Positions 9,587 to 63,048 of a stretch of 64,000 nt of DNA are shown piece after piece. Position numbers and translations under genes: made by a program. The DNA comes from Miniphocaeibacter massiliensis. Lineage in GTDB: Bacteria > Bacillota > Clostridia > Tissierellales > Peptoniphilaceae. How positions within the stretch are numbered: position 1 is the stretch's first letter; the number at the start of each line of letters is the position of its first letter. Below the pieces are notes generated by a model. The model ran no database searches, was not told where the DNA came from, and saw only the letters and a list, made by a program, of their open reading frames with translations. The stretch is taken from positions 248,001 to 312,000 of the forward strand of contig NZ_OCTQ01000003.1 in NCBI RefSeq assembly GCF_900232905.1, in the 5' to 3' direction.

Positions 9587-9615
9587 TTGATTAAGTTAAA
9601 TTAATTTGATATACT
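9587..9615 (+). promoter_or_regulatory. Promoter of the ABC-F leader
   Basis: TTGATT (9587-9592) and TATACT (9610-9615) have exactly 17 bp between them. It lies 31 nt before a short ORF and 283 nt before the ABC-F gene, leaving a long leader. Confidence 0.7.
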
Positions 9616-9645
9616 TGGTACATTATTAGAAGAAAGGTTTTAAAT

Positions 9646-9756
9646 ATGAATGCTTTAGTAAGTTTAGAAACTAACAACTTATATAAATTGGTTAGAATGA
9701 CAGGATGTACAAAAATGAACCAAGGGATAGGTGTGTTTAAAATTAAATTTAGCTAA
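9646..9756 (+). CDS. 36-codon upstream ORF, candidate leader peptide of the ABC-F gene
   Basis: ATG 9646 follows AAAGG (9633-9637) at 8 nt and encodes 36 residues beginning MNALVSLETNNLYKLVR and ending VFKIKFS. No family is recognised. It sits between a good promoter and a terminator hairpin (9803-9834) that precedes the ABC-F ATPase. That is the layout of ribosome-mediated attenuation known for several antibiotic-resistance ABC-F genes, where a stalled ribosome on a leader ORF prevents terminator formation. It is longer than most such leaders and contains one Cys. It could instead be an independent small protein. Confidence 0.6.
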   Translation: MNALVSLETNNLYKLVRMTGCTKMNQGIGVFKIKFS

Positions 9757-9802
9757 CTAAAGTAAGTGATTATTTTGCAAACAATTTATTATATAAATTA
9801 GT

Positions 9803-9834
9803 AAACTTAGGTGATTACTTGCCTAGGTTTTTTT
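9803..9834 (+). terminator. Leader terminator/attenuator before ABC-F
   Basis: AAACTTAGG (9803-9811) pairs with CCTAGGTTT (9822-9830, one G-U), followed by seven T residues. It lies between the uORF and the ABC-F start with no other promoter obvious, so ABC-F expression probably needs readthrough. A partial direct repeat of the stem, TAAGTGATTA, lies at 9763-9772 and could take part in an alternative fold. Confidence 0.7.
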
Positions 9835-9897
9835 ATTGTTAAAAATTGTATTTGATTAATTTAACTTAGCAGTACATCTTAAAATAAGGAGAAAAAA

Positions 9898-11781
9898 GTG
9901 CTAGAAATATCATTAAATAATATAGAAAAAAATTATGGAATAAAAAATATATTAAAAAATTTAAATTTACAAATAAATAGAGGAGAGAAAATAGGTGTAG
10001 TAGGAAAAAATGGGTCTGGAAAAACTACATTATTTAAAATAATAGAAGGAACAGAATATGTTGATAAAGGAACTGTATTTATAAGTAAAAATAGCAATAT
10101 AGGTTATTTAGAACAAATACCAAATTATCCTTCTGAAAAGACAACAATAGATATATTAAACTTAGCTTTTAAAAGAGAAAATATAATGCTAAGAGAGCTA
10201 AATATACTAGAAAAGGAAATAAGTGATTTAAAGGGAGTAAAATTAGAGAAAGCTTTAGAAAAATATGGAGAGCTTCAAGAAAAATATGAATTGATAGGTG
10301 GATATGAAATCCAAGAAAAATTTAGTAAAGTTACAGTTGGGCTAGGTATAAGCGAAAAAATGCTTAGCTCAAAATTTAATACTTTAAGTGGTGGAGAAAA
10401 AACTACAGTATTATTAGGGAAAATTCTTTTGGAAAGTCCAGATATTTTACTTTTAGATGAACCAACAAATCATTTAGATATGGAATCTATAGATTGGTTG
10501 GAGAAATTTATTAGAGATTACAAAGGAACTGTAATTTCAATATCTCATGATAGATATTTTTTAGATAAGGTTGCGACAAAAATAATAGAAGTATCTAATG
10601 GAAAGGCTAAAGAATTTCTTGGAAATTATTCTTATTATCTAAAAGAAAAAGAAAGGTTATTTGAAGAAGAATTAAGAAAATTTAAAGAACAAGAAAAAGA
10701 AATAAAGTCTATGGAAGAAGCTATAAAAAGGTTAAAAGACTGGGCTAATAGAGGAGATAACGAAAAATTTTTCAAAAGAGCTTTTAATATGGAAAAAAGA
10801 TTAGAAAAAATAGAAAAGCTTGAGAAACCAACTACGGAAAGTAACATTAGCCTTAAATTTAATGTTAAAGATAGGGCAGGAAAAGAAGTTATAGATATTA
10901 AATCACTATCAAAAAAATTTGGAGAAAAAATATTATTTGAAAATATAGATTTAAATATAAAGTTTGGAGAAAAAGTTTGTATTATAGGAGGTAATGGAAC
11001 TGGTAAAACTACAATATTAAAGCTAATTTTAGAAGAGTTAAATCCAGATGAGGGAAATATAAAAATAGGATCAAACGTAAAAATAGGATACTTAGAACAA
11101 AATGTTTTATTTAAAGATGAAAATAAAAGTATATTAGATACTTTTAGATATGATCATATAAGGTCAGAACAAGAGGCAAGAAGTATATTAGCTAAATTTT
11201 TATTTTATGGAGAAGATGTTTTTAAGAAAGTAAAAGACCTTTCAGGTGGAGAAAGAGCGAGGCTTAGACTATGTCAGTTAATGTATAAGAATGTAAATGT
11301 TTTAATTTTAGATGAACCAACAAATCATTTAGACATTATGAGCAGAGAGATGTTGGAAGATACACTATTAGAATTTAAAGGAACTCTTCTATTTGTATCT
11401 CATGATAGATACTTTATAAATAAACTTGCAAATACAATATACGAACTTTCAAAAATAGGACTTGAAAAATATATAGGGAACTATGATTATTATATAGGGA
11501 AAAAGTTAGAAAAAAATATAGAATTAGAAAATATAAAAGAAAAAAGTAAGTCTATAAAAATAGAAAAAGATAATAAATCAAAGAAAAAAGTAAATCCTAT
11601 AAAATTGAAATTGCTTGAAGAAGAAATCAATGTTTTAGAAGAAAGAATTTCAATAATGGATAAAGAATTAGAAAAATATTCGTCAGATTTTGAAAAACTT
11701 AATAAAATTTTAGAGGAAAAAGAAAAATTAGAGAAGCGTTACGAAGAAATAATAGAAGAATGGTTAAATACAAATCAATAA
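9898..11781 (+). CDS. ABC-F family ATPase (ribosome-associated)
   Basis: The 627-residue soluble protein starts with GTG at 9898 behind AAGGAG. It has two ABC domains: Walker A GKNGSGKTT, signature LSGGEKT and Walker B LLLDEPTNHLD in the first; GGNGTGKTT, LSGGERAR and LILDEPTNHLD in the second. Between them is the charged linker (about 235-310) that reaches the ribosomal peptidyl-transferase centre in this family, and a coiled-coil C-terminal extension follows (about 545-627). No membrane segments, so it is not a transporter. ABC-F proteins relieve stalled or antibiotic-bound ribosomes. The leader uORF and attenuator point to translation-coupled induction. The exact subfamily is not determined. 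Confidence 0.92.
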   Translation: MLEISLNNIEKNYGIKNILKNLNLQINRGEKIGVVGKNGSGKTTLFKIIEGTEYVDKGTVFISKNSNIGYLEQIPNYPSEKTTIDILNLAFKRENIMLRELNILEKEISDLKGVKLEKALEKYGELQEKYELIGGYEIQEKFSKVTVGLGISEKMLSSKFNTLSGGEKTTVLLGKILLESPDILLLDEPTNHLDMESIDWLEKFIRDYKGTVISISHDRYFLDKVATKIIEVSNGKAKEFLGNYSYYLKEKERLFEEELRKFKEQEKEIKSMEEAIKRLKDWANRGDNEKFFKRAFNMEKRLEKIEKLEKPTTESNISLKFNVKDRAGKEVIDIKSLSKKFGEKILFENIDLNIKFGEKVCIIGGNGTGKTTILKLILEELNPDEGNIKIGSNVKIGYLEQNVLFKDENKSILDTFRYDHIRSEQEARSILAKFLFYGEDVFKKVKDLSGGERARLRLCQLMYKNVNVLILDEPTNHLDIMSREMLEDTLLEFKGTLLFVSHDRYFINKLANTIYELSKIGLEKYIGNYDYYIGKKLEKNIELENIKEKSKSIKIEKDNKSKKKVNPIKLKLLEEEINVLEERISIMDKELEKYSSDFEKLNKILEEKEKLEKRYEEIIEEWLNTNQ

Positions 11782-38540: not shown

Positions 38541-38613
38541 GTTTACAAAAATATTTAGCTGTGATAAAATCAATTTATTCTATTGAAAAGAAATAGTAAT
38601 TAATTGATATTTT

Positions 38614-38781
38614 TTAGAGAGAAAGTGTTTGGTGAAAACTTTTAAATTAGATTAATGAACCTATCTTGGAAGATGTATGAAAACATACAGGGTTGTGCCC
38701 TATAGCTTTAGAGATAATCTAATGATTAATTGAAGTGGTACCGCGTAGTCTTTCGCCTTCTGGTGATAGACTACTTTTTTT
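38614..38781 (+). ncRNA. T-box riboswitch of proS (proline tRNA)
   Basis: A stem I start (AGAGAGAAAGTGTTTGGTG) and the T-box AAGTGGTACCGCG (38733-38745) are present. The terminator is 38745-38757 with 38762-38774, followed by T residues. The likely specifier is CCT (Pro) at 38660-38662 in GAACCTATC. The variable T-box base in TGGNACC is T, which pairs with the A discriminator of tRNA-Pro. Uncharged tRNA-Pro should stabilise the antiterminator and raise proS expression. Confidence 0.93.
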
Positions 38782-62684: not shown

Positions 62685-62691
62685 ATATGTA

Positions 62692-62955
62692 AGCACACCC
62701 AGCTTTGACATAGTAAACTATAGCGTTACCTAGCTAGTTAGCTCGAAACAGGCTTCCTTACGGCACACAAGAGTGTCTACTTATGGCTGCTTCATTCCTG
62801 ATCTGACCAGATTCATAGATTCCTGTTGCGTAAGACCCATTTGTCAACACCACTTTTCTAGGGCGGACCTAAAACTTACTAGGCCGAGGCTGGGAATTCA
62901 ACCCTGCTGTAGCGATTGCAGGTTACAGGGCATCGCTAGTTCCCCGTCTAGTGCA
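62692..62955 (-). ncRNA. ffs: Signal recognition particle RNA, large Bacillus type
   Basis: Read on the minus strand, the sequence matches B. subtilis scRNA along its length. It has the Alu domain (GCCCTGTAACCTGCAATCGC, then GTGGTGTTGACAAATGGGTC), and helix 8 with GGTCAGATCAGGAATGAAGC, the Ffh-binding motif. GAGCTAACTAGCTAGGTAACGC is also conserved (split here at the core TAACTAGCTAGGTAACGC). It is about 264 nt. The ends are approximate, set by pairing of the 5' GCAC with the 3' GTGC. A terminator follows at 62684-62650. It begins within a few bases of the tRNA-Ser 3' end. Confidence 0.93.
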
Positions 62956-62956
62956 T

Positions 62957-63048
62957 GGCGGAGAATAAGGGATTTGAACCCTTGAGACGCTCATCACGCC
63001 TACACGATTTCCAATCGTGCTCCTTCAGCCAGCTCGGACAATTCTCCA
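62957..63048 (-). tRNA. tRNA-Ser (anticodon GGA)
   Basis: The acceptor stem GGAGAAT (63048-63042) pairs with ATTCTCC (62967-62961), followed by discriminator G and encoded CCA (62959-62957). The anticodon stem-loop CACGATTGGAAATCGTG gives anticodon GGA. The long variable arm is typical of tRNA-Ser, and the T-loop GGTTCAAATCC is normal. It is cotranscribed with SRP RNA, an arrangement also found in Bacillus. Confidence 0.95.

Follow-up and report, generated by a model that had tools for sequence, protein, structure and literature searches.

A conserved leader RNA with features of a ribosome-mediated transcription attenuator upstream of an ABC-F gene

Organization of the leader and the ABC-F gene

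The window, meaning the whole 64,000-nt stretch of DNA analysed, encodes an ABC-F ATPase of 627 aa on the plus strand (9898-11781, GTG start) with two ABC domains, a short interdomain linker and a C-terminal domain. The region ahead of it (9587-9897) carries a set of leader elements on the same strand. The promoter (9587-9615) consists of TTGATT, a 17-nt spacer and TATACT and includes an extended -10 element, TGATATACT, at 9607-9615, from which we infer a transcript start near 9622. The Shine-Dalgarno sequence AAAGG (9633-9637) is located 8 nt upstream of the ATG (9646) of a 36-codon upstream open reading frame (uORF, 9646-9756) that encodes MNALVSLETNNLYKLVRMTGCTKMNQGIGVFKIKFS before its stop codon. 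Downstream are an intrinsic terminator, T1 (9803-9834), with a stem formed by 9803-9814 and 9819-9830 and a tract of seven T residues at 9828-9834, and the ABC-F Shine-Dalgarno sequence AAGGAG (9886-9891). Between these, alignment to relatives located what is probably the decayed remnant of a second terminator, T2 (9846-9872), intact copies of which were present in both congeners (L006, L007) and in most homologues.

The promoter, the uORF with its ribosome binding site, the T7 terminator and the ABC-F start reported in the first-pass annotation were all found in place. The promoter that it had termed consensus is present as given, although the hexamer match alone was no better than chance, with 20 matches against 23.3 expected; one terminator was found in the stretch searched against 0.2 expected from shuffled sequence. 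The element set stands above chance because it is conserved in relatives and not because of the hexamer match. In AT-rich sequence, the -35 region and approximately 9853-9868 were seen by eye to form an inverted repeat, which the congeners lacked and which was taken as chance. Elsewhere in the window are a T-box leader (38574-38763, plus strand, 107.8 bits) and a large bacterial SRP RNA (62691-63047, minus strand) adjoining a tRNA gene.

Conservation and distribution of the leader

The same order of promoter, uORF and terminator was found in two congeners (G001 and G002) behind a different upstream gene, with a homologous uORF (E 1.4e-5 in G002), two tandem terminators and an orthologous ABC-F at 69-73% identity. 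Both congeners carried the TGATATACT element unchanged, and in 28 of 38 homologues an extended -10 was located just upstream of the uORF Shine-Dalgarno sequence, which in most homologues was of the AGGAGG type. A terminator was present in all of the first homologues (33/33), the first terminator of L006, L089 and L099 having been missed or mis-bounded by the automatic finder and set by eye. In the first search 16 orthologues reached 46% identity or more; the leader was recognisable or degenerate in 15 of them, the exception being L020.

The leader is ancient: besides the two congeners, about 30 further loci, spread over many families in the phylum, carry it ahead of an orthologous ABC-F. Searches with a covariance model (R1) and a profile built from 30 sequences (R2) gave leader matches in 22-26 of the 249 genomes of the order, some of the weak ones spurious, and 10 of 391 genomes of a class sample matched, other families included. 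A phylum sample yielded five genomes besides the window's own, one of them clearly GC-rich, and the same ABC-F was downstream in each of the five. Weak model matches at L137 and L138 were rejected as spurious.

Ten loci (L091, L092, L094-L097, L105, L134-L136) carried the leader before an MFS transporter of about 400 aa, with the ABC-F absent from that place. The three MFS proteins scanned matched Pfam MFS_1 (E 1e-28 to 4e-35), and the closest named families were drug-efflux types, all scores being far below the cut-offs; these proteins are described here as putative drug-efflux pumps. Several genomes (G043, G052, G059, G072, G220 and G248) had one leader copy before each of the two genes.

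The ABC-F gene under an intact leader was broken by an internal deletion in L089 (G216) and had an early C-terminal break in L007 (G002), while L104 (G268) was a decayed orphan leader with neither ABC-F nor MFS gene behind it. In L101, an Rfam Clostridiales-2 RNA (664-744) that scored just below the gathering score (57.9/58.6) separates the leader from the ABC-F gene.

None of the Rfam 15 covariance models matched over the leader, the literature searched contained no match to it or to its peptide string SKIKYY, and the leader model found no match among the known resistance-gene loci and own paralogue loci examined. We conclude that this is a new leader-RNA family representing a kind of regulation that is already known.

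Competing RNA structures and their co-evolution

Sequence comparison showed three RNA structures that compete with one another: a long hairpin, P1, an antiterminator and the terminator. P1 (9651-9764), delimited by folding and co-variation, is the candidate anti-antiterminator and encloses the uORF, which was folded whole into the hairpin; in the window, folding paired outer arms 9651-9667 with 9743-9764 and inner arms 9673-9682 with 9727-9737. The 5' strand of the antiterminator, Y (9762-9775), is directly 3' of the uORF stop codon, and its sequence complements the T1 loop and the proximal part of the T1 3' arm. In the window it pairs over 14 bp with 9809-9822, a segment of T1 that doubles as the antiterminator 3' strand. 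Y:T1 and T1 are mutually exclusive because they have these bases in common, and among the homologues Y either overlaps P1 or sits inside it. A different antiterminator, in which element X (ATCTTTACC) pairs with the T1 5' arm, was rejected as it was absent in L016 and L017 and the pairing of Y with the T1 3' arm was stronger.

Changes on both sides were seen in 17 of 29 P1 pairs on alignment A3, counted on the structure taken from L012, which somewhat favours that structure, and the P1 covariation score was 0.229 compared with 0.080-0.097 for slid structures. RNAalifold recovered only 3 pairs on the same alignment, a shortfall due to misplacement by MAFFT of the 5' arm in MFS-type leaders. In a species-swap test, in which the arm of one species was paired with the other arm from another species and the energies were compared, P1 pairing was weaker in the swapped combinations, and z was -9.9 for the middle helix (P1b), -5.6 for the base (P1a, with the uORF Shine-Dalgarno sequence and start) and -3.8 for the inner helix (P1c). 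The antiterminator had energies of -11.1 kcal/mol when matched versus -8.2 when mismatched (z -7.3; 31 sequences, five later finds included). The test corrects for relatedness only partly, and the modest z of the antiterminator control segments (-1.2, -2.0 and -2.3) gives the size of the relatedness effect; an antisense-strand control was symmetric and uninformative. Co-evolution of Y with T1 held even in L090, where the terminator sequence was wholly changed. The co-evolving anti-antiterminator and antiterminator, structures absent from the first-pass annotation, strongly support the ribosome-mediated attenuation that it had proposed.

A conserved stretch that is independent of reading frame

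The most conserved part of the leader, with consensus AAGGGNNNAGTNYGTCYAAAATYAAATATTATGTNAACT, spans 9722-9759 and corresponds to the 3' arm of P1. It read as ..SKIKYYVN in most homologues, yet in L018, L088, L090, L093, L094 and L098 the nucleotides were unchanged and another frame was used (..VCPKLNIM and similar), and in L101 a stop codon interrupted the stretch. A conserved stalling peptide of the macrolide +X+/RLR type was therefore not found, as the frame over the motif varies among the homologues. Codons 2-5 of the uORF likewise had no conserved residues and no shared amino-acid codon among the homologues. A nested in-frame start within the uORF (V/MSKIKYYVN) was considered and rejected, its codon being GCG or CTG in several homologues. 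P1 pairing accounts for part of the conservation of 9722-9759; the sequence AAAATYAAATATTATG in the P1 3' arm is mostly unpaired yet conserved and could possibly be a polymerase pause or factor site.

These observations bear on a rival account of the locus, a conventional small gene that carries a terminator of its own and is followed by an independent ABC-F gene. The uORF has the proper ribosome binding site and terminator of such a gene, but no plus-strand promoter match was found between T1 and the ABC-F start, the interval (9834 to 9898) in which the first-pass annotation had held that a promoter would contradict attenuation. Together with the co-evolution of the antiterminator, the frame changes and the linkage to two unrelated genes, this leaves the account scarcely credible.

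Predicted response to a ribosome on the leader

Each leader was folded as an RNA truncated six bases into the 3' arm of T1, with a ribosome footprint of -13 to +15 placed at each codon. The median number of antiterminator pairs was 0.1 without a ribosome, 11.3 with a ribosome at codon 1, 10.3 at codon 5 and 3.4 at codon 7, then 0.1-0.2 from codon 13 to approximately codon 30 and 2.2 at the stop codon. When the first 66 nt were shuffled, the ribosome-free RNA formed the antiterminator (median 10.6) and Y was freed in 30 of 31 leaders; it is thus the native 5' arm that withholds the antiterminator. The sensor is predicted by this folding to respond to ribosomes held at approximately codons 1-5. 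Complete T1 was more stable than the antiterminator in most homologues whatever the ribosome position, and the equilibrium probabilities of the two showed no switch in most homologues, a switch being seen only with T1 incomplete. The model therefore needs kinetic trapping during transcription.

We consider it probable that the leader is a ribosome-mediated transcription attenuator of the ABC-F gene, triggered by ribosomes held in the first codons of the uORF. With no ribosome on the leader, the uORF region would fold as P1 and make Y unavailable; a ribosome that runs to the uORF stop would cover the stretch just behind it with the same result. In either case T1 would form and the ABC-F gene would remain untranscribed. 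A ribosome held in approximately the first five codons would cover the P1 5' arm and free Y, which would pair with the emerging T1 loop and 3' arm, so that RNA polymerase would continue into the ABC-F gene. By inference the trigger would be an inhibitor that acts on ribosomes in early elongation; the ABC-F, like the MFS transporter elsewhere, would relieve the inhibition. Drug induction of the ABC-F is accordingly a prediction of the model.

Macrolides had been listed in the first-pass annotation among the likely inducers. In a macrolide-type leader, the KIK (+X+) near the uORF end would stall drug-bound ribosomes late and so give readthrough, as in the RLR leaders ErmD, MsrA and rli80/hflXr. 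KIK or KIR occurs in many homologues, and the RLR motif marks macrolide-inducible leaders (PMC6310831). Against this, the six leaders with the motif in the other frame have not kept the peptide, and folding gave no antiterminator for most stalls past codon 13 and termination with the ribosome at the stop, making late stalling quite improbable as the mechanism and disfavouring macrolides. Pleuromutilins, lincosamides and streptogramin A inhibit translation soon after initiation and depend little on sequence context (general background and PMC10201436). This agrees with the absence of conserved residues from codons 2-5 of the uORF, and under the early-stall model these drugs would fit better than macrolides as inducers.

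The copy in the window differed in degree. Its antiterminator has only three bases in common with P1, and in the window and the two congeners folding formed the antiterminator in ribosome-free RNA before T1 was complete, which indicates a weak anti-antiterminator in these three; withholding without a stalled ribosome was clear in most other homologues. At equilibrium with complete T1, the probability of T1 in the window was 0.90-0.93 in ribosome-free RNA and fell to 0.41-0.75 once a ribosome occupied codons 1-3, figures that shift with the assumed transcript start. The window copy is thereby predicted to be a softer switch than in its relatives, and its basal readthrough may be above theirs.

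The ABC-F protein and its MFS counterpart

The resistance-type assignment of the ABC-F in the first-pass annotation is unproven. The curated cut-offs of the named resistance families (Vga, Msr, Lsa, Sal, CplR, OptrA, TlrC/CarA and VgaF) were not reached, with bits score/cut-off of 363/725 for Vga, 334/680 for Msr, 246/750 for Lsa, 317/725 for Sal, 313/780 for CplR and 332/1450 for OptrA. NF000355 (ribosomal protection-like ABC-F) was above its cut-off (492/380), which the paralogues L001 and L002 of the same genome also passed, so this model cannot separate resistance from housekeeping proteins. The window ABC-F lacks the long interdomain antibiotic-resistance domain of the Vga/Lsa/Msr type, its linker being 141 residues compared with 165-168 in LsaE and MsrA, 137-138 in the housekeeping paralogue and 135 in OptrA. 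OptrA is a resistance protein with a short linker, and by analogy a role of the window ABC-F in drug resistance is possible.

A quick tree with long branches and modest support placed the leader-bearing ABC-F proteins in one group with L020, L037 and L039 and separated this group from OptrA, MsrA, Vga, TlrC and the housekeeping-like paralogue. Near the base of the leader clade, LsaE and a chromosomal-type S. aureus ABC-F attached on long branches, a placement that is unreliable. The more distant relatives L037, L038, L039 and L040 (49-53% identity) have a different putative leader, in which a strong inverted repeat (AACTATTACAACGAGATA...) comes after a small ORF (MMNKRKDLESRLKIRSYACKTITTR, then stop); this leader may be a further attenuator.

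In an alternative reading the ABC-F is housekeeping-like and its leader a general sensor of translation trouble, in which shortage of the protein itself, amino-acid starvation or cold would slow early uORF translation and raise expression without any drug. The position of the protein outside every resistance family and its short linker, like those of OptrA and the housekeeping paralogue, agree with this. The distribution is patchy, however, as a convincing match in the window's own family was restricted to one genus (g1) in the order-wide search, in contrast to the paralogue found in nearly every relative; codons 2-5 without a shared amino-acid codon argue against amino-acid attenuation; and the same leader also drives an MFS transporter. 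We consider such a sensor unlikely. The occurrence of one leader before two unrelated genes points most readily to a signal common to both, for which drug stress would be natural in such a pair, and this association with an MFS gene raises the likelihood that the ABC-F is of the resistance type.

A wider reading joins these points into a single phylum-wide leader-RNA family, common to a new clade of ribosome-protecting, short-linker ABC-F proteins and an unrelated MFS pump, that would sense inhibitors of the first elongation steps and whose frame-independent RNA motif would have a second job, for example in timing RNA polymerase or binding a factor. We offer this only tentatively, as a possible but doubtful extension of the early-stall attenuator.

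Comparison with known attenuators

The vmlR leader of Bacillus subtilis has an anti-antiterminator, an antiterminator and a terminator, with a 3-codon uORF (MIN) in the first hairpin, the base of which is opened by stalling at the start (PMC9226507). The leader described here resembles it in its probable transcription attenuation before an ABC-F gene, in the order of structures and in a uORF inside the first hairpin. It differs in having 35-50 codons folded whole into the hairpin, a conserved RNA motif and often two terminators, and no sequence kinship between the two was found. The cplR leader of Clostridioides difficile, with the uORF MR[I/M], acts by premature termination and is induced by retapamulin and lincomycin (PMC10201436). 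It is likewise a clostridial ABC-F leader with a uORF and terminator upstream, but its terminator also sequesters the cplR Shine-Dalgarno sequence and the protein is ARE1 CplR, the NCBIfam model of which the window ABC-F missed by a wide margin (313/780 bits). The window uORF of 36 codons is not of the 3-4 codon vmlR/cplR/lsaA type (MIN, MR[I/M], MAGN). Attenuation that works through a stalled leader ribosome also governs a ribosome-acting resistance gene in the msrD leader MsrDL (PMC10314930) and in rli80/hflXr of Listeria (PMC6310831); those leaders have macrolide-specific peptides, whereas here the peptide lacks conservation and stalling late in the uORF is predicted not to induce.

Implications

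If the attenuator operates as proposed, the long uORF would owe its retention to the RNA fold that it forms and not to the peptide that it encodes. A leader recognisable from sequence would then single out two families of genes, among them an ABC-F clade that belongs to none of the named resistance families, as probable inducible genes of the drug response in a large, little-studied group of anaerobes and also outside it. The leader would also offer a ready test of the drugs to which these ABC-F and MFS genes answer.
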